This document shows positions 7,271 to 31,076 of a stretch of DNA of 39,119 nucleotides, one piece after another. Position 1 is the first letter of the stretch, and each line of letters starts with the position of its first letter. The notes beneath the pieces were generated by a model, which saw nothing but the letters and a program-made list of their open reading frames with translations, did not search any database and was not told the DNA's origin. A program made the position numbers and the translations under genes. The DNA comes from Porticoccaceae bacterium (GTDB taxonomy: Bacteria; Pseudomonadota; Gammaproteobacteria; Pseudomonadales; Porticoccaceae), in the NCBI GenBank assembly GCA_002689135.1, contig NZEU01000021.1:18553-57671 (forward strand), written 5' to 3'.

Positions 7271-9289
7271 ATGTCTTCTGTTCGAAAAATACTTGTCACT
7301 AGCGCGCTCCCATACGCTAATGCCCCATTACATCTTGGGCACATACTTGAGTACACACAAACAGACATTTGGACCCGATTCCAAAAAATACGCGGTAATG
7401 ATTGTTACTACGTTTGCGCTGATGATGCACACGGGACTGCCATCATGCTTACAGCGGACGAACAACAGATTTCTCCGGAGGAACACATTAAGAAAATGCA
7501 AGCATCCCATGAGGCTGACTTTTCAGATTTCTTAATTGATGTTGACCACTTTCACTCCACCCACTCAGATGAGAACAAAATATTAGTCGAATTAATATAC
7601 AAACGTTTGGTCGATCGAGGCTTTATTGTCCAAAAAGCCATAGTACAGTCTTACGATTCCAAGAAAGAAATCTTTTTGGCAGACCGTTATATAAAAGGAC
7701 AATGTCCCAAGTGTAAAGCGTTTGATCAGTACGGAGATAATTGTGAAATTTGCGGTGCTACCTATCAAGCTACAGAATTGATTAATCCAATATCAGTTCT
7801 CTCTGGTACTACTCCCGTAACTAAAGAGTCGATACACTACTTTTTTAAACTCTCAGAATTTACTGATTACTTAAAATCCTGGACTTCGGGCAAACATTTG
7901 CAACCAGAAGTTTCGAATAAATTACGTGAATGGCTAAATGATGGCCTAAAAGATTGGGATATAAGTCGCGATGCACCCTACTTTGGTTTCAAAATTCCAG
8001 GCACATCGAAAAAATATTTTTACGTTTGGCTTGATGCACCAATTGGTTACATGGCTAGCTTTAAGGCTTTATGTAAAAAAAATGATATCAATTTCGATAC
8101 TTTTTGGAGTTCTGACAGTAAGGCGGAGCTCTATCATTTTATTGGTAAAGATATAGTGAACTTTCATGCTTTATTTTGGCCTGCCATTCTGGAGAGCACT
8201 GGTTTCCGCACACCGACCGAAATTGCGGTGCATGGCTTTGTAACAATAAATGGTTTGAAAATGTCCAAGTCTAGAGGCACCTTCATAAATGCTAGGGACT
8301 ATTTAGAACATTTAGATCCCGAATATCTTCGTTACTATTATGCAAGCAAGTTATCTCGGTCAATCGATGATGTAGATTTAAATTTCGATGACTTTGTCCA
8401 GAAAGTCAATAGTGATCTCGTTGGGAAAGTGGTGAACATTGCTAGTAGATGCGCAAAATTTGTAACCCATGGTAATGCTGGCGTTTTGTCGAAAACGATC
8501 CACAATTCTGAACTTTTGGGAAAGGTATCAGGTATCTCAGTTACCATTGCCAGACTTTACGAAAAACGAGATTTTAGTGGAGTGGTTCGATTAATTATGG
8601 CTGAGGCGGATTCGATAAATGAATATATCACCGCATCAGAGCCTTGGAAGCTAAACAAAGATGAGGAAAAAAAACAAGAGGTCCAGGATATCTGTTCATT
8701 GGGAATTAATTTGTTCCGTATCCTCATGATCTACCTAAAGCCGATCCTTCCTAAAACAGCAAAAGCCAGCGAAGTTTTTTTAAATGATGAGTTGAATTGG
8801 AGTGGTATAACTCGGCCACTGACAGATCACCAGATTGAAACTTTTTCACCAATGATCAAAAGAATTGACAAAAACTCAATCGAATCTATGCTTTCAGGAA
8901 ACAAGGCTTATTCAAATGAAAAAGTAACAGCAAAAATCAAGGCTGACGTTAATCTAAACGCAGTTGAGGAGGTAGAAATTGAAGAATTCCAAAAAATAGA
9001 TCTCCGAATCGCAAAAATCATCAAAGCTGAGACAGTTCAAGGGGCAGATAAGTTAGTGAAGCTAACTTTAGATATTGGGACGGAAACAAGACAAGTTTTG
9101 TCAGGAATAAAATCTGCTTATCTCCCTGAACAACTTGAAGGTAGGCTAACGTTAATGATAGCAAATATCGCTCCTCGCGAAATGCGATTTGGTACTTCTC
9201 ATGGAATGGTGCTTGCCGCAAGCTCAAAAAATGGTGTCTATCTGCTGGAACCTGACATCGGAGCGGCTCCAGGACAGAGAGTGACCTGA
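7271..9289 (+). CDS. metG: Methionyl-tRNA synthetase with C-terminal tRNA-binding domain
   Basis: '[23 protein letters not shown]', zinc motif '[18 protein letters not shown]', '[10 protein letters not shown]', C-terminal '[31 protein letters not shown]'. Confidence 0.98.
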
Positions 9290-9355: not shown

Positions 9356-9940
9356 ATGCTCACAATAGAAGAATTCACTTACTTAATTATTGTGGCTAGC
9401 CTCAGTAATAACTATGTATTGGTGCAAACCTTAGGGGTTAGTCATTCCATCCGCCTTCCTTATAATACGGAAGTCGTTCACGCAATCGCGGTGGTAACAA
9501 CCTCAGTGATGATGATCAGTGCGGGAATTAGTCATTGTTTTGAAACGATAATTCTCGGACCTCTGCAACTAGTATATTTACGCACCCTCTCTTTCATGCT
9601 ATTAATTTTTACAGTCATCATGTTTCATAAATACTTTATAAAAAAATATAAGGTTCTCACCGATAAATTTTTTAATGTTTTCTTTCCACTGTTGTTTAGT
9701 AACTCAGCAATTTTGGGAATCGCTTTGCATAATTCTCAGAACGTAACATCAGTTTTTCAAGCGATGTCTCACGGCCTTGGCGCGGGAGTCGGTTTCTCCA
9801 TAGTTCTAATTTCATTTGCAAACATTCGGGAAAAGATAACTGGACCCCACATACCCCTTCACCTCCGAGGAGCGCCCATTGCCTTGATTACGATAGGACT
9901 AATTTCCATGGCCTTTTCAGGATTCCGTGGGATAGTGTGA
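9356..9940 (+). CDS. rnfA: RnfA-like membrane subunit (RnfA/NqrE family), lacking the cluster-ligand cysteines
   Basis: 'SNNYVLVQTLGVSHSI', 'LVYLRTLSFMLLIFTVI', 'FFPLLFSNSAILGIAL', 'LRGAPIALITIGLISMAFSGFRGIV' align collinearly with remembered RsxA/RnfA. Confidence 0.93.
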   Translation: MLTIEEFTYLIIVASLSNNYVLVQTLGVSHSIRLPYNTEVVHAIAVVTTSVMMISAGISHCFETIILGPLQLVYLRTLSFMLLIFTVIMFHKYFIKKYKVLTDKFFNVFFPLLFSNSAILGIALHNSQNVTSVFQAMSHGLGAGVGFSIVLISFANIREKITGPHIPLHLRGAPIALITIGLISMAFSGFRGIV

Positions 9941-10960
9941 ATGAGTAGTTTAATACGCAGAAACCCCAAACGAAGCGGTACCCAAACAATATTACTCGTG
10001 ATTTTAGCGTGCCTACCGGGTTTCGTTGCACTCTCTTGGTACTTTGGCTGGGGTGTTTTTTTAAACGTTTTCATCTGCGTTATCAGCTCAACAATCTTTG
10101 AGGCCATTGCAATAAGTTTTAAAAAAAAATTGCCATATTATTGTCTGAAAGACTTCAGTACATTGTTAACTGCTGTCTTGATTGGCTTATCATTACCACC
10201 TCTTTGCCCTTGGTGGTTACCCATCATAGGATGCATTGTGGCAATCCTAATAGGAAAGTATGCTTATGGCGGCTTTGGAGCCAGCCCTTTCAATCCTGCA
10301 ATGGTAGGCTATGTAACGTTATTGTTATGTTTCCCTTTTTTAATGAGCCAATGGGTAGCAGTGGACGCGCCTTACTCTAACAACATCCAGCACCCAACGC
10401 TGATTAAATCGATGGCGATAAAAATTGGCAATTTACAGCAATTCGACGGTATTACTGGCGCAACTCCTCTTGAGGTTTTTAGGCAAAATAATGGTCTTCT
10501 TGTCCACCAACTGTACTCAGAGAAAAAAATTTTTTCACAGAGTGGGTGGGCTGGAGTCGGCTGGGAATGGGTTAACCTAGGGTTTCTTTTAGGTGGTCTA
10601 TTCTTAGTTTTTTCCAAAATAATTTCTTGGCATGCACCCACTGGAATGCTGGGAAGCATTACAATTCTGTCACTCATTTTTTGGGATTCCGGAAGCTCTG
10701 CGAGTCTCGGGTCCCCAATCTTCCACCTTTTTAGCGGAGCGACTATGATAGGCGCTTTTTTTATAATTACTGACCCCGCATCCTCTACAACGAGTACGGA
10801 AGGTCGTCTTGCTTTTGGAGTTCTCATTGGTGCTTTAGTGTTCTTTCTACGTGGCTGGAGTGACTATCCAGATGGCTTAGCCTTCGCAGTCCTTATAGCC
10901 AACTTCCTAGCCCCGACGATAGATAAGTATGTCGTTATAACCGCTGATAGCGATAAATGA
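9941..10960 (+). CDS. rnfD: RnfD-like membrane flavoprotein subunit (RnfD/NqrB family)
   Basis: 'GGFGASPFNPAMVGYV', flavinylation motif 'DGITGATPLEVF', 'LFSGATMIGAFFIITDPASSTT', 'DYPDGLAFAVLIANFLAPTID'. Confidence 0.95.
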   Translation: MSSLIRRNPKRSGTQTILLVILACLPGFVALSWYFGWGVFLNVFICVISSTIFEAIAISFKKKLPYYCLKDFSTLLTAVLIGLSLPPLCPWWLPIIGCIVAILIGKYAYGGFGASPFNPAMVGYVTLLLCFPFLMSQWVAVDAPYSNNIQHPTLIKSMAIKIGNLQQFDGITGATPLEVFRQNNGLLVHQLYSEKKIFSQSGWAGVGWEWVNLGFLLGGLFLVFSKIISWHAPTGMLGSITILSLIFWDSGSSASLGSPIFHLFSGATMIGAFFIITDPASSTTSTEGRLAFGVLIGALVFFLRGWSDYPDGLAFAVLIANFLAPTIDKYVVITADSDK

Positions 10961-11598
10961 TAAGTCAGGCAAGTCAGCGAAGTATTGTGGTCATCAGTGT
11001 AACTGCGGCTCTATTAATGCTGGTGTTAGTGCTTGTGCATTCCCTTACTCGAGAAATTATCTACTCAAATACACTTTCTTCCAAAAAGGAAAAGTTACTA
11101 GAACTCATACCAAAGCGCTATCGTACTGGAGACATCCACATTGAGTCATTATCAGTGCCCAAAGCGCATTGGACTTCACTTGGGCTTGAAAATAGCATAA
11201 ATTATCACGTTGTTAATAACTTCGGTATTCCTGTAGCAGTAATAATCCCAGCGATTGGAAAAGGATACAGTGGCAATATCAAAATACTAGTTAGTATTGA
11301 TATGAGGGGAAGTATTATTTTTGTCCGCGTAACTTCCCATCAAGAAACACCAGGATTAGGAGACCAAATAGAAATCACCAAGAGCCAGTGGATAAGTCAA
11401 TTTTCTGGAAGATCTCTCTCCAATACAACTGAGGCCGACTGGGGTTTAATCTCTGATGAAGGAGCTTTTGACTCATTTACAGGAGCAACAATAACGCCTC
11501 GAACAGTTGTGCGACAAGTCTTCGCTGCTCTAAATTTTGGCTACACTATCTTAAATAGAGGCCATGATAGCCTCAAAAAAGTTGAAGGAATGAATTGA
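10957..11598 (+). CDS. rnfG: RnfG-like periplasmic flavoprotein subunit (RnfG/NqrC family)
   Basis: 'GKGYSGNIKILVSIDMRGSI', 'HQETPGLGDQIE', flavinylation motif 'DSFTGATITPRTVV'. Confidence 0.94.
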   Translation: MISQASQRSIVVISVTAALLMLVLVLVHSLTREIIYSNTLSSKKEKLLELIPKRYRTGDIHIESLSVPKAHWTSLGLENSINYHVVNNFGIPVAVIIPAIGKGYSGNIKILVSIDMRGSIIFVRVTSHQETPGLGDQIEITKSQWISQFSGRSLSNTTEADWGLISDEGAFDSFTGATITPRTVVRQVFAALNFGYTILNRGHDSLKKVEGMN

Positions 11599-12251
11599 TG
11601 AACGATTCTTCATTCTTTAAAAATAATAAGAAACAACTCTGGACCAACAACTTAACGCTGATCAAACTTATGGGTATAACGCCAGTACTGGCAATTACTA
11701 CTACTCTGTGCAGTGCACTTGCTTTAGGACTCGCAACACTGCTCATTCTAATAAGTTCTAACGTTCTAATTTCAGTGTTGCGTAAAAACTTAACTGAAAA
11801 AACGCAGATTCCATTTACCATCCTAGTGGTCGCCACTTTAGTATCTATTACTGATCTCTTGATGCAAGCTTTCGCTTACGAGCTATCTAGTTCAATTGGG
11901 ATCTTCGTCCCGCTCATTGCAACTAACGGCATCGTATGGGACCGAGTAAGAGAAATTGCATACCACAAGACCGTTGCACACGCAGCATATGACGGATTAG
12001 TTTGCGGCACCGCTTTTTTAATCGTTCTATCGGTTGTAGGAGTGTCACGCGAACTTTTAGGCGCAGGCACAATTTTTAAGAATATGCACCTAATATTCGG
12101 TCCAGCCGCAAAAAACTGGGTAGTCCACCCTTTCAGTGAAAACTTTGAAGTGCTGATTTTCAATTTTCCTTGTGGCGCATTTTTTATCTTAGCGGCTCTT
12201 CTAGCTGTAAAAAATACCATCGACCTTTATTCGCACGAACACACCAAATAA
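11598..12251 (+). CDS. rnfE: RnfE-like membrane subunit (RnfE/NqrD family), lacking the cluster-ligand cysteines
   Basis: 'LWTNNLTLIKLMGITPVLAITTT', 'SSIGIFVPLIATNGIVWDRV', 'AAYDGLVCGTAF', 'SRELLGAGTIF'; ATG 11598 overlaps the rnfG stop (TGATG). Confidence 0.93.
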   Translation: MNDSSFFKNNKKQLWTNNLTLIKLMGITPVLAITTTLCSALALGLATLLILISSNVLISVLRKNLTEKTQIPFTILVVATLVSITDLLMQAFAYELSSSIGIFVPLIATNGIVWDRVREIAYHKTVAHAAYDGLVCGTAFLIVLSVVGVSRELLGAGTIFKNMHLIFGPAAKNWVVHPFSENFEVLIFNFPCGAFFILAALLAVKNTIDLYSHEHTK

Positions 12252-12426: not shown

Positions 12427-13461
12427 ATGGACAGAATTTCAATAATAAAGCCTGATGACTGGCACGTGCACCTTCGAGATAAAGACGCGTTAGAAACAAC
12501 GGTTCCTGCAGCGATACGTTGCTTTGAACGTTGCATAATAATGCCTAACTTATCGCCGCCCGTCACGTCAGCGGAGTTAATCAAAAGGTATCGTGACTCA
12601 ATACTTAAATACAAACCATCTAATAGCAAATGGACTCCCCTGATGGTTATGTATCTGACCGATCATACATCAATAAAATGTATAAGAACCGCATTTGATC
12701 AAGGCCTGATCTTTGGTTGCAAATACTACCCAGCTGGCGCAACAACTAACTCAGCATCTGGTGTCACAAATCTTAATGGGTTAGACGCGGTATTTAACGT
12801 TATGCAAGAACTGGGAATAACACTACAAATCCACGGCGAGGTGACTGATAGCTCGGTAGATATTTTCGACCGTGAGAAAATATTTATTGATCGTCACTTG
12901 ACACAAATAAAACATAGGTTTCCTGAATTGAAGATCGTGTTTGAGCATGTCACGACAAAACAAGGTGTAGAGTTTGTAAGAGACAGTGATAAATACATCG
13001 CTGCCACTATCACACCGCAACACCTGCTTTTTAACAGAAACGATATGCTTGTCGGTGGTATAAGACCACATCTCTTTTGTCTACCAATTTTAAAGCGAGA
13101 CCTACATCAAAATGCTCTGATTAAGGCCGCAACCAGTGGAGAAAAGAAGTTTTTTTTAGGGACAGATTCAGCGCCCCACTCTCGCGAAGACAAAGAGAAT
13201 ATCTGCGGATGCGCCGGTTGCTTTAGTCATCATGCAGCCATCGAGTTGTATGCTGAAGCTTTTGAGAGAGCAGGCGCGTTGCATCGGTTAGAACAATTTG
13301 CGAGTAAAAATGGCGCCGAATTTTATGGTTTAAAAACAAATTCCGAGTTTATTTCATTACTACGTGACCCATGGCGAGTGCCGGATCAGATAGATTACCG
13401 AGATTCCTATTTAGTGCCGTTAGGGGCAGGGCTCACTCTAAATTGGCGGCTTGAAACCTAA
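12427..13461 (+). CDS. pyrC: Dihydroorotase (E. coli type)
   Basis: 'ISIIKPDDWHVHLRDKDAL', 'MPNLSPPVTS', 'FLGTDSAPHSREDKENICGCAGCFS'. Confidence 0.97.
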   Translation: MDRISIIKPDDWHVHLRDKDALETTVPAAIRCFERCIIMPNLSPPVTSAELIKRYRDSILKYKPSNSKWTPLMVMYLTDHTSIKCIRTAFDQGLIFGCKYYPAGATTNSASGVTNLNGLDAVFNVMQELGITLQIHGEVTDSSVDIFDREKIFIDRHLTQIKHRFPELKIVFEHVTTKQGVEFVRDSDKYIAATITPQHLLFNRNDMLVGGIRPHLFCLPILKRDLHQNALIKAATSGEKKFFLGTDSAPHSREDKENICGCAGCFSHHAAIELYAEAFERAGALHRLEQFASKNGAEFYGLKTNSEFISLLRDPWRVPDQIDYRDSYLVPLGAGLTLNWRLET

Positions 13462-19438: not shown

Positions 19439-21475
19439 CTAATGAATACCCTTCCAATACTCTCGATTTAGAAGATATACAAATACAAGCAATATAGCCA
19501 AGAAAAAAAGCACCAACTTTCCGATGTGCTGGCGCTGTTGTGCCATCGGCTCCGCAATGTAAGTAAGGAAGTTTACCAAATTATATACTGCATTATCGAA
19601 CTCAGATGGAGAGAGAATTCCGTTGGAAACTTGTTCAAAACGACCACAGGGATCATCCAGCAGATCCTCACCAGTGAGCAAATCTCTTTTTATGCCTCCA
19701 TTGCTTGCTAATATGGGTCCTGGAGCGCATCTGGTTAGCCCTTGAAGGTTTAACAACGCGTGAGGCATACCTACATCTTTATACACTCTATTATTGACTC
19801 CTAAAGGACGAGTATCATCGGCATAGAAGTTTCTGAGATAAGTATATAGCCATTCCGGCGACCTAGATCGTGCGATGAGAGTTAAATCGGGAGGCGCCGC
19901 ACCAAACCAAGACGTGGACTGCTCCTCCCTCATACCGATCCGCATCAAATCTCCAATTTTCTGATCTGCAAATACCAAGTTTTCCATCATCAAATCATGA
20001 GGTATCGTCAAATCGTCTGCCACTCGCTCCCAGCGCGAGTATTTAAAAGAATGGCACCCCATACAATAATTGACAGCCAGTTGAGCCCCTTTTTGTAAAG
20101 ACGCCTCATCCCACAAACTGGACTGGAAGTTGTCACAATTAATCGTACCACAATCCTTTCCTTCTGCACCCACAACTCGCAGTGGCACAAAGACTAAAAA
20201 CGCCACCAGCCCGAATCCGCAAAACGTTTTGAATGTCCCGATTCCACCATCCATTGTTATTCTATCTGGTTCAGTGCGAGTTGTCTCATACCGCGTCCAA
20301 AAGTAAATGCCAATAAAATATGAGAAATAAATTATCGTGCATATTTGAGCCAATACTGTGCGAGCTGGCGTTGGAGCTTTAACGCCAAGAAATCCTAAAA
20401 TGATGAAACTGGTAACGAATAATAGGATCATCACTCGGCTCACATTTCCTTTATACCGCATTGATCTTACTGGGCTCCGATCAAGCCACGGGAGAACAAA
20501 CAATATTGCAATCGCTGCTGCCATCGTGACAAAGCCTCCCAACTTATCGGGTACTGCTCTCAACATAGAGTAATAAGGTGTGAAGTACCAAACTGGCGCA
20601 ATATGTTCTGGGGTTTTCAACGAGTTTGCTATCTCAAAATTTGCATGCTCGAGAAAATACCCTCCCATTTCTGGCATAAAAAATAAGACCGAGCAAAACG
20701 CGAATAAAAAGACGGTGATTGGTATTAAGTCGTGGATTACAAAGTATGGATAAAACGGAATTCCGTCAATGGGCTTGCCAGAGGAGTCTCTGTGCTTCTT
20801 AATCGACACTCCATCTGGATTATTAGATCCGACATCATGCAACGCTATTATGTGCATAGCAACGAGTGCTATCAAAATTAAAGGCATAGCGACTACATGT
20901 AGTGACATAAAACGGTTAAGAGTTATACCTGAGATCAAGTAATCGCCTCTAATCCATTGCACTAAATCCTCTCCAACAATCGGAATTGCTCCAAATAGCG
21001 AAATTATTACCTGAGCGCCCCAGTAAGACATTTGACCCCAAGGGAGCACATAACCAAGAAACGCTTCTGCCATCAGCACGACATAAATCGACATCCCAAA
21101 AACCCAAACCAATTCTCTTGGGGCTTTATATGAACCGTAAACTAAACCGCGGAACATATGCATATACACCACAATAAAAAATGCCGACGCACCAGTTGAA
21201 TGTGCATATCGTATTATCCAACCGTACTCCACATCTCGCATTATATACTCAACTGATGCGAATGCCTGCTCTGCGGAACCTTGATAGCTCATGAGTAACC
21301 AGACACCCGTGACCAACTGAATTAACAACACAACGATTGATAACACACCAAAATAATACATCCAGTTAAAGTTTTTTGGGGCATAATATTCAGCCATATG
21401 CCGATTCCACTCTCTTTTAAGAGTGGGAAGCCTGGCATCTAGCCAGCTCGCAAAATCCGGATGCTTATCCATCAT
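19439..21475 (-). CDS. Fused cytochrome b / cytochrome c1 (PetB-PetC, FbcH-like polyprotein) of the bc1 complex
   Basis: One 678-aa frame: cytochrome b (residues ~1-405, 'YAHSTGASAFFIVVYMHMFRGL', 'GYVLPWGQMSYWGA', 'HIAPVWYFTPYYSMLRA'), then internal hydrophobic segment + 'VVGAEGKDC', then cytochrome c1 ('YCMGCHSFKYSRW', 'AAPPDLTLIARSR', 'DVGMPHALL'). Confidence 0.95.
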   Translation of the reverse strand: MMDKHPDFASWLDARLPTLKREWNRHMAEYYAPKNFNWMYYFGVLSIVVLLIQLVTGVWLLMSYQGSAEQAFASVEYIMRDVEYGWIIRYAHSTGASAFFIVVYMHMFRGLVYGSYKAPRELVWVFGMSIYVVLMAEAFLGYVLPWGQMSYWGAQVIISLFGAIPIVGEDLVQWIRGDYLISGITLNRFMSLHVVAMPLILIALVAMHIIALHDVGSNNPDGVSIKKHRDSSGKPIDGIPFYPYFVIHDLIPITVFLFAFCSVLFFMPEMGGYFLEHANFEIANSLKTPEHIAPVWYFTPYYSMLRAVPDKLGGFVTMAAAIAILFVLPWLDRSPVRSMRYKGNVSRVMILLFVTSFIILGFLGVKAPTPARTVLAQICTIIYFSYFIGIYFWTRYETTRTEPDRITMDGGIGTFKTFCGFGLVAFLVFVPLRVVGAEGKDCGTINCDNFQSSLWDEASLQKGAQLAVNYCMGCHSFKYSRWERVADDLTIPHDLMMENLVFADQKIGDLMRIGMREEQSTSWFGAAPPDLTLIARSRSPEWLYTYLRNFYADDTRPLGVNNRVYKDVGMPHALLNLQGLTRCAPGPILASNGGIKRDLLTGEDLLDDPCGRFEQVSNGILSPSEFDNAVYNLVNFLTYIAEPMAQQRQHIGKLVLFFLAILLVFVYLLNREYWKGIH

Positions 21476-22107
21476 GCAGTCTCCGCATCGATTCCAATTA
21501 CAATGATTGAGTCTGTTTCATACGAATGGGGCGGAATTTCTAGATTAGTTGGAGCAGGAACTCCCGCAAAAACTCGTCCAGACAAATCGAATTTAGATCC
21601 GTGGCAGGGACAAAAGAAGCCCCCAAGCCAAGAATCACCACCAAGATCCTTAGCTCCAACGTCGGGGCGGTATATGGGCGCGCAACCAAGATGAGTGCAC
21701 AACCCGACTAACACCAGATATTCTTCCTTGCCGGGTTGTGTTCGCGCAAAACCACTAACATAACTAGGCTGATTGGCGGCTGTAGAGTCTGAGTCTTTTA
21801 GTGCTTCTTGCGGGAAGTTGGCAACTGCATCCAGCGCCTCTTTGGTTCTTCGGATAACATAAACCGGTTTCCCGCGCCACTCCACCACAAGCCTCCCACC
21901 GGGCTCAAGCTTTTCTACGTCAATCCTAATAGGTGCTCCCGCTGCTTTTGCTTTAGCACTTGGTTTCCAGGACGCAACAAAAGGAACGGAAGCTCCTATC
22001 ATACCTATTCCGCCAAGAACCGATGTAGCACCGGCTAAAAATTTTCGCCGAGTTGTGTTAACAACACTGGTGGAATTATCAGAAATACTTCCTTGCTTAA
22101 TATCCAC
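21472..22107 (-). CDS. petA: Ubiquinol-cytochrome c reductase Rieske iron-sulfur subunit
   Basis: Tat-like 'TTRRKFLAGATSVLGG', Rieske motifs 'CTHLGCAP' and 'CPCHGSKFD'; ATGA overlap with the downstream petBC; GTG 22107 chosen as start. Confidence 0.95.
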   Translation of the reverse strand: MDIKQGSISDNSTSVVNTTRRKFLAGATSVLGGIGMIGASVPFVASWKPSAKAKAAGAPIRIDVEKLEPGGRLVVEWRGKPVYVIRRTKEALDAVANFPQEALKDSDSTAANQPSYVSGFARTQPGKEEYLVLVGLCTHLGCAPIYRPDVGAKDLGGDSWLGGFFCPCHGSKFDLSGRVFAGVPAPTNLEIPPHSYETDSIIVIGIDAETA

Positions 22108-22289
22108 TGGAGTAATACCTCCCAATTTTGTGATGACACAAAGCAGATGATAGTGCACTTTGTTCCTGTAATATGATAATTGAATTATCCCGCCAACGCA
22201 ATAAATCACGGTACACACAGAGACTGCAAATATATGAATTTAAAAGAAATTAAAGTCAGAGTGTAGTTAAAAACATCAAGTCAATCAGC

Positions 22290-25245: not shown

Positions 25246-26037
25246 ATGAGATCTAAATCATCGAATTTTGTGGAAGAAGTATGGCGAAATATAACCGCCG
25301 AAGCGAAAGCAGTAGTTAAAAATGAACCTTTACTTGAAATTTTTCTAAACAAAGCAGTTTTAAGCCATAAAAGTTTCAAAGCGGCTCTTGAGTGCCGTTT
25401 ATTGAATGCACTAATCAATGATTATTTAACTAAGGATATTTTGAGCTATCACTTTGCTCGAAACCAAAAGGCACACAGAATAGAATCAGCAACTTTGGAC
25501 TTATTGGCTATCAACAATAGAGATTCTGCTTGTAATTCGAATTTAGAGGCGTTTCTTTTTTACAAAGGTTTTTTAGCTCTGCAGGCCCACCGATTGGCAC
25601 ACAACTTGTGGTGCGACGGATATCAAATACTTGCACTTTTGATTCAATCAACTACTTCAAGATTTTATGGGGTGGACATTCATCCAGCAGCTAAAATCGG
25701 TTCCTCTGTGATGCTAGATCATGCCACCGGGTTAGTGATAGGGGAAACTGCAGTTGTAGAAGATTATGTTTCTATTATGCAAGGTGTAACTCTTGGAGGA
25801 ACAGGTAAAGAGGAGGGAGAAAGACATCCCAAAATTCGGCGCGGAGTGCTGATTGGCGCTGGTGCAAAAATTCTCGGAAACATCGAAATAGGTGCAGGCT
25901 CCATGATTGGAGCCTGCAGTGTCGTTTTAAAAGCCGTAAGCCCCCACTCGTTAGTCGCTGGTGTGCCCGGTCAAGTGATAGGCAACACTCTGACAGATAA
26001 ACCCGCTTTGGTAATGAATCATTATTTTGAGATATAG
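25246..26037 (+). CDS. cysE: Serine O-acetyltransferase, paralog 1
   Basis: 'FYGVDIHPAAKIGSSVMLDHATGLVIGETAVV', 'VTLGGTGKEEGERHPKIRRGVLIGAGAKILGNIEIG'. Confidence 0.93.
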   Translation: MRSKSSNFVEEVWRNITAEAKAVVKNEPLLEIFLNKAVLSHKSFKAALECRLLNALINDYLTKDILSYHFARNQKAHRIESATLDLLAINNRDSACNSNLEAFLFYKGFLALQAHRLAHNLWCDGYQILALLIQSTTSRFYGVDIHPAAKIGSSVMLDHATGLVIGETAVVEDYVSIMQGVTLGGTGKEEGERHPKIRRGVLIGAGAKILGNIEIGAGSMIGACSVVLKAVSPHSLVAGVPGQVIGNTLTDKPALVMNHYFEI

Positions 26038-30284: not shown

Positions 30285-31076
30285 TCAATTCCCTTCTTTA
30301 GTTATTTGCTGATCCATATGAAAAGCGGCCATTCCAGGGGTAGAGCCTCCAATTATCTTTGCCGGAACTCCCGCAACAGTAACAAATGCCGGCACTGATT
30401 CTAGCACCAGGCTTCCTGCACCAATTTTAACGCCCTCTCCTACAGTAATGTTCCCCAGCACTTTTGCACCAGCCGCAATTAGAACACCATTAGCAATTTT
30501 TGGATGTCGATCACCCGATTGTAGCCCACTACCTCCAAGTGTCACTGAGTGAAGAATGGACACATCATCACCAACAACCGCAGTTTCTCCAATGACAAGA
30601 GAAGTTGCATGATCTAACATAACTCCAGCACCAATAATTGCTCCGGGATGAATATCCACGCCATAATTCTCAGACATCTTACTTTGTAAATATCTAGCTA
30701 AATAACGTTGGCCTCGAATCCACAAGCTATGACAAATTCGTTGTAATTGTAGAGCTTGAAATCCCTTATAAAAGAGAAGTGGAGTGACGTAATGCTCACA
30801 TGCTGGATCGCGATCAACATATGCTTGCAAGTCCCGACAGGCGCATTGCAAAATCTCGTTATCCAGATCTAACGATTTCGCAAATATTTTTTCAAGATTA
30901 ATCTCATACTTAGTGATACCAAAAAAGTTTGAACTTAAGTTGTCCGCCAAAGCATTACCAAGATCAGGCTTCTTAAAAATTTGTACCTCTAAAAAGTCCC
31001 GCAATGCTGGTTCTTGCGCTTGCATGATTCTTGCCTCTTCCAACATTGTCTTCCATAAGTCTTTGGCACTAATCAA
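30285..31076 (-). CDS. cysE: Serine O-acetyltransferase, paralog 2
   Basis: 'RDPACEHYVTPLLFYKGFQALQLQRI', 'YGVDIHPGAIIGAGVMLDHATSLVIGETAVVGDDVSILHSVTLGG'. Confidence 0.93.
   Translation of the reverse strand: MISAKDLWKTMLEEARIMQAQEPALRDFLEVQIFKKPDLGNALADNLSSNFFGITKYEINLEKIFAKSLDLDNEILQCACRDLQAYVDRDPACEHYVTPLLFYKGFQALQLQRICHSLWIRGQRYLARYLQSKMSENYGVDIHPGAIIGAGVMLDHATSLVIGETAVVGDDVSILHSVTLGGSGLQSGDRHPKIANGVLIAAGAKVLGNITVGEGVKIGAGSLVLESVPAFVTVAGVPAKIIGGSTPGMAAFHMDQQITKEGN

Follow-up and report, generated by a model that had tools for sequence, protein, structure and literature searches.

Can the flavin-carrying half of an Rnf complex outlive its iron-sulfur half? Descriptions of Rnf and Nqr treat the intramembrane [2Fe-2S] cluster as the strictly conserved gate of electron transfer. 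The locus considered here, from a small group of ocean bacteria, has four of the six Rnf parts, keeps its predicted flavin sites, and has lost every Fe-S site. It lies in the window (the whole stretch of DNA that was analyzed, 39,119 nt), which is part of contig C14 of a draft genome (G000; 1.86 Mb, 82% complete).

Gene content and ligand columns

In this part of the window, dcd and an Mrp/ApbC-type gene on the minus strand are followed on the plus strand by metG, rnfA, rnfD, rnfG, rnfE, pyrC, and rnt. The conserved neighbors are metG upstream (7271..9289, +; TIGR00398 and synteny in relatives), the source of our species tree, and pyrC downstream (12427..13461, +; TIGR00856 and synteny). Between them, all on the plus strand, rnfA (9356..9940; 194 aa; PF02508, 103.5 bits) scores 137 bits against TIGR01943, well under the cut-off of 229, and therefore encodes a diverged RnfA; rnfD (9941..10960; 339 aa; PF03116, 290 bits) and rnfG (10957..11598; 213 aa; PF04205, 58 bits; aligned with solved RnfG) score above the cut-offs of TIGR01946 (341 bits) and TIGR01947 (141.5 bits), respectively; and rnfE (11595..12251; PF02508, 141 bits) exceeds the cut-off of NF009070 (RsxE) with 210 bits. 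RnfE has 218 aa if read from TTG 11595 and 217 if read from ATG 11598. The rnfA and rnfD genes abut (TGA then ATG, 9938..9943), and rnfD/rnfG and rnfG/rnfE overlap, an arrangement as in one putative operon. By profile search and alignment, RnfA and RnfE both belong to PF02508 and are the predicted inverted-topology pair. The AlphaFold model of RnfA has six predicted helices and its best PDB match is 9eri_A (TM 0.70), but the model is weak (pLDDT 68, falling below 50 at residues 19 to 33, around S29) and supports an RnfA-like fold only.

Elsewhere in the window, cytochrome b and cytochrome c1 appear as one 678-residue fusion (19439-21475, -) beside a Rieske [2Fe-2S] protein gene (21472-22218); Fe-S respiration is therefore used elsewhere in the genome. 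Two serine acetyltransferase genes lie on opposite strands within 6 kb of each other (25246-26037, +; 30285-31076, -).

The rnfA/rnfD junction is the site of rnfB and rnfC in relatives, where the order metG-A-B-C-D-G-E is seen in G214, G161, and others. A reading of the sequence alone had reported both genes missing, and the wider search bears this out: RnfB (PF04060) was found nowhere in G000 or in four sister genomes, three of which are 96 to 97% complete, and RnfC_N gave just two matches in G000, both under the cut-off and one lying within NqrA. A location elsewhere in the genome is thereby ruled out for both subunits.

That same reading held that all four Cys ligands of the intramembrane cluster are replaced, which is confirmed, codons and coordinates included. 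Ligand columns were defined by the solved Rnf and Nqr chains (9eri, 7zc6, 8ahx, and 7xk3) and 59 loci of the family; in Vibrio cholerae Nqr, the ligands are NqrD C29 and C112 and NqrE C26 and C120 (PMC9325719). Aligned to the solved chains, with no gaps nearby, the window proteins have none of the four Cys: the columns hold RnfA S29 (AGT, 9440-9442) and S117 (TCA, 9704-9706) and RnfE T29 (ACG, 11679-11681) and G112 (GGC, 11928-11930; T28 and G111 if numbered from ATG 11598). Nor do other Cys take their place, since RnfA C61 is ~30 residues off and RnfE C38 is unconserved in the nearest relatives; gapless alignments and the positions of the other Cys rule out both a misalignment and a site filled by another Cys. 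Genome-wide Cys avoidance is likewise ruled out, with NqrD and NqrE of G000, an internal control, keeping all four.

Whether the Cys columns are otherwise invariant has a divided answer. Cys stands at both RnfA columns, and at both RnfE columns where readable, in 44 of the 59 family loci, and the remaining 15 differ. Among the matches listed in a class-wide search, the second RnfA Cys is present in 29/29 of the best and 20/20 of the weakest loci, and the first is also present in these 49 wherever it is shown.

The same locus occurs in four further public genomes (Porticoccaceae NP1052, Cellvibrionales UBA1854, AG-907-E05, and SP293; loci L076 to L079), which rules out an assembly error or frameshift. 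Gene order in all four is metG-rnfA-rnfD-rnfG-rnfE-pyrC-rnt, rnfD following rnfA immediately; their ligand columns read Ser, Ser, Thr, and Gly as in the window, and RnfA identity is 72 to 81%. The evidence supports a clade (hereafter, the window clade), comprising five or more genomes, whose Rnf locus is conserved and intact in frame and has no Fe-S ligands.

Order and recurrence of the losses

Relatives within the genus fall into a graded series. In G161 and G207, RnfB and RnfC are still encoded, each with two 4Fe-4S motifs, and three of the four ligands are gone (Ser and Thr in RnfA; Ser and Cys in RnfE); G183, whose contig ends in rnfB, has the same RnfA residues. G152 has no RnfB, two ligands left, and, in the place of rnfC, a 215-residue open reading frame that matches the RnfC tail over its final 84 residues (E=3e-8) and, weakly, the RnfC start at its own start (E=0.005). 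The window clade has zero ligands and neither RnfB nor RnfC. Three congeners (G192, G195, and G210; loci L227, L228, and L229) have no rnf genes between metG and pyrC, and at that locus rnf is therefore dispensable. In L227, the metG-pyrC interval holds genes for amidohydrolases, a short-chain dehydrogenase, the alpha subunit of a Rieske/ring-hydroxylating oxygenase, and SnoaL-like and glyoxalase proteins.

On the MetG tree, a single-gene stand-in for the species tree, the window clade and G152 are sisters, with G161, G183, and G207 next. By parsimony, the first Cys of RnfA and the first Cys of RnfE were lost before rnfB and rnfC, and the last ligands after them. The genus and its relatives thus supply a natural series in which the ligands number four, two, one, and zero, RnfB and RnfC are present together, singly, or not at all, and finally Rnf itself is absent.

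Comparable losses occur outside the genus. RnfB and RnfC are absent and ligands lost in genus g101 (G155 and G165) and in G235, and G197 has no RnfC and two ligands. In genus g100, RnfB and RnfC are kept while G164 has zero ligands, as has the RnfA of G172 and G179 (only RnfA was read in these two). Mapped on the MetG tree, the ligand state has switched five times or more and RnfB has gone, with RnfC lost or reduced, three times or more, and the AU test rejects a single clade both for the ligand-poor rows (p-AU 4e-9) and for the B-less rows (p-AU 4e-10).

Several metG-linked loci from other gammaproteobacterial families also have a Cys-less RnfA, often with RnfB and RnfC kept and RnfE unrecognizable (G357, G567, and L043); among the loci from these families, the most diverged (L199 to L201, L204, and L208) have uncertain alignments. 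The RnfA Cys are lost in L043, L198, L203, and L211, and one of the two in L044; these five loci keep RnfD and RnfG and often RnfB and RnfC, and rnfE was not recognizable within the stretch read. In locus L242 (G450), both Cys are present in RnfA, and RnfB, RnfD, RnfG, and RnfE follow; RnfC was not found there, making G450 a case of RnfC loss without RnfA ligand loss.

The sequence-only reading had taken the loss of the ligands and of RnfB/RnfC to be one coordinated event and had asked whether Cys-less RnfA and RnfE are monophyletic. Neither idea survives: G161, G207, and G164 keep both subunits, and one clade is rejected. It had also counted ordinary RnfB/RnfC-bearing complexes without these Cys as evidence against its interpretation, and such complexes exist to a degree, in G161, G207, G164, and other gammaproteobacterial families. 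By parsimony, ligand loss was stepwise and recurrent and preceded the loss of RnfB and RnfC. The same wearing-away took place independently in related lineages, and nature has thereby provided a test of the purpose of the iron-sulfur half. The Fe-S loss may have been driven by iron saving in the open ocean.

Flavin sites and the remaining complex

The FMN-Thr motifs are present in the window proteins, with T175 of RnfD (in DGITGAT) and T178 of RnfG (in DSFTGAT) as predicted covalent FMN sites. The RnfD FMN-Thr is kept in every readable family locus and that of RnfG in all but one, and the flavin-pocket motif HxETPGLGD is kept in the window RnfG. The exception is L135 (G155, genus g101), where the RnfG FMN-Thr is Ser; no other family locus that was read shows this. 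Riboflavin is bound in NqrB by T162, G198, N200, N203, A205, F342, and D346 (PMC9325719, PMC10643135); by correspondences counted off the alignment, RnfD keeps T77, G113, N118, A120, F274, and D278, the counterparts of T162, G198, N203, A205, F342, and D346. The counterpart of N200, canonically Asn, is S115 in the window RnfD, with Ser in two of the five clade genomes. ApbE is encoded in all five, adjoining nqr in G000. As judged from these sequences, the persisting part is the flavin arm, consisting of the predicted FMN-Thr motifs of RnfD and RnfG, the residues of the putative riboflavin pocket, and ApbE.

Electrons in Rnf are described as passing from RnfB to the RnfA/RnfE cluster, then to RnfG-FMN, RnfD-FMN, RnfD-riboflavin, and RnfC (PMC12174285), and a V. 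cholerae NqrD-C29A variant without the cluster is on record (PMC10643135). Once the cluster, RnfB, and RnfC are gone, all that can remain of this path is RnfG-FMN, RnfD-FMN, and RnfD-riboflavin. The reading that we prefer, giving it about an even chance of being right, is that a vertically inherited Rnf locus has been stripped of its Fe-S parts and now works as a linear flavin wire. From an ancestral metG-rnfABCDGE, cluster ligands in RnfA and RnfE would have been lost first, with RnfB and RnfC still there, then rnfB and rnfC, and then the remaining ligands. The leftover complex could hold three flavins (RnfG FMN, RnfD FMN, and RnfD riboflavin). We infer that electrons would enter or leave at the membrane-side RnfD riboflavin, with a quinol or another reductase replacing RnfC, and would pass between there and a periplasmic partner by way of RnfD-FMN and RnfG-FMN. 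RnfA and RnfE would be a scaffold holding RnfD and RnfG, the complex no longer being a ferredoxin/NAD pump; as mere scaffold, their cluster site would be free to drift. In relatives that keep RnfC, the same idea would have electrons run from NADH through RnfC and RnfD to RnfG without RnfA/RnfE. For such a wire count the published path, which places the RnfG and RnfD flavins after the RnfA/RnfE cluster (PMC12174285), the recurrence of the locus and its substitutions in L076 to L079, the intermediates in the genus, the kept FMN-Thr and riboflavin-pocket residues, ApbE, the higher retention of canonical invariant columns in RnfD and RnfG than in RnfE and RnfA, and the intact frames with low RnfA dN/dS; relaxed constraint, the rnf-less congeners, the Ser in RnfG of G155, and the N115-to-Ser change in two of five genomes count against it. 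No partner gene was found linked to the rnf locus.

The main rival is slow decay, in which the breaking of the electron path left the complex without a function, and what remains is a relic under only weak or structural selection, on its way to total loss. Rates of substitution bear on it from both sides. Pairwise dN/dS in the window clade is 0.16 to 0.32 for RnfA, 0.18 to 0.33 for RnfD, 0.19 to 0.48 for RnfG (the top value in one pair), and 0.16 to 0.33 for RnfE, compared with 0.08 to 0.16 for metG in the same pairs and 0.00 to 0.02 for canonical RnfA, making the RnfA value ~10 times that of its canonical counterpart. These ratios are below 1 yet above those of metG and canonical RnfA, and the proteins are therefore under purifying selection with relaxed constraint, RnfA most of all; values so far below 1 rule out full neutrality. 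The difference between rnf (~0.2 to 0.3) and flanking genes (~0.1) is what decay would lead one to expect, as are the RnfC relic in G152, the absence of rnf between metG and pyrC in G192, G195, and G210, and the retention by RnfA of just 48% of the columns invariant in canonical relatives (RnfE, 63%; RnfG, 71%; RnfD, 82%). However, all four frames are intact in five genomes over a dS of ~0.7, with no stop and no frameshift, dN/dS stays far under 1, and the FMN-Thr motifs are unchanged, and we consider decay unlikely.

Alternatively, RnfADGE might be an additional module for docking or exchange that serves the Nqr complex of G000, with NqrF or NqrA standing in for RnfB and RnfC. Contig C33 of G000 does carry a full nqrABCDEF set, its four Cys intact, together with apbE, but without the RnfA/RnfE cluster NqrF could not reach RnfG by the known path, and canonical relatives also have a second Rnf-Nqr pair in addition to Rnf (PF02508 is matched four times in each); the co-occurrence is therefore unspecific and such a module improbable.

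Three Cys are specific to the window clade: RnfA C61 (9536-9538), RnfE C137 (12003-12005), and RnfE C193 (12171-12173). They are conserved in its readable sequences and absent from canonical relatives, and C61 is also present in G152, as would be the case if they carried another metal or redox centre in place of the cluster; none of the three, however, is at or beside a ligand column (their distance in sequence from the ligand positions is ~25 to 80 residues), the Ser, Thr, and Gly in those columns are not usual [2Fe-2S] ligands, and we regard a replacement as very improbable. A single coordinated origin of an Fe-S-free Rnf, with ligands and RnfB/RnfC lost together, would account for the loss of ligands in each of the nine family loci that have neither RnfB nor an intact RnfC, but this association runs one way only, and the losses with RnfB/RnfC kept (G161, G207, G164, and the RnfA of G172 and G179), their number, and the rejected one-clade tree leave it scarcely credible.

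The wider form of the flavin-wire reading, that RnfADGE is a working iron-free, flavin-only redox complex acting through RnfD and RnfG and that similar conversions took place several times independently in Gammaproteobacteria, is put forward tentatively, as somewhat short of an even chance. The graded series shows that an Rnf can keep its flavin half after the iron-sulfur half has gone, and it makes the role of RnfD and RnfG alone directly testable.

Comparison with known systems

In open-access text, no publication came up on an Rnf lacking RnfB/RnfC or the four Cys, or on Rnf in Porticoccaceae/SAR92; to that extent, the suggestion of a previously undescribed variant stands. One large survey (PMC8238504) took the presence of RnfB as its criterion for Rnf, so the window locus would have gone uncounted; surveys of this kind miss such systems. 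Conversely, proteins annotated as "RnfA/RnfE" need not be capable of holding a cluster.

Compared with Rnf/Rsx (RnfABCDGE; Azotobacter vinelandii Rnf1, 8ahx, and Acetobacterium woodii, 9eri), the window locus has orthologous RnfA, RnfD, RnfG, and RnfE, the ancestral gene order and place after metG, the FMN-Thr motifs, and the riboflavin-pocket residues. Unlike Rnf/Rsx, it is without the RnfA/RnfE Cys ligands and without the defining RnfB ([4Fe-4S] ferredoxin motifs) and RnfC (NAD/FMN and two [4Fe-4S]), leaving no known Fe-S site. The input and output subunits known for ferredoxin:NAD oxidoreductase or SoxR-reducing Rnf activity thus appear, from gene content, to be missing. The locus would work like part of Rnf; three of the features that define a complete Rnf were looked for and none was found, so it does not count as one.

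Na+-NQR (NqrABCDEF of V. cholerae) shares a homologous four-subunit membrane core (NqrB, NqrC, NqrD, and NqrE). It differs in that its NqrD and NqrE keep the four Cys, in G000 also, and in having NqrA and NqrF, which are not in the window locus but in the separate nqr operon.

Two-subunit Nqr/Rnf-like systems, for which one-way electron transfer to an extracytosolic flavin has been proposed (Meheust 2021, PMC8238504; PMC10979944), likewise combine RnfD-like and RnfG-like subunits without RnfB. Their RnfD-like subunit, however, is fused to an NAD-binding domain (PF00175) and its own FMN-Thr is unconserved, whereas the window RnfD consists of PF03116 only, keeps its FMN-Thr, and is accompanied by RnfA and RnfE.
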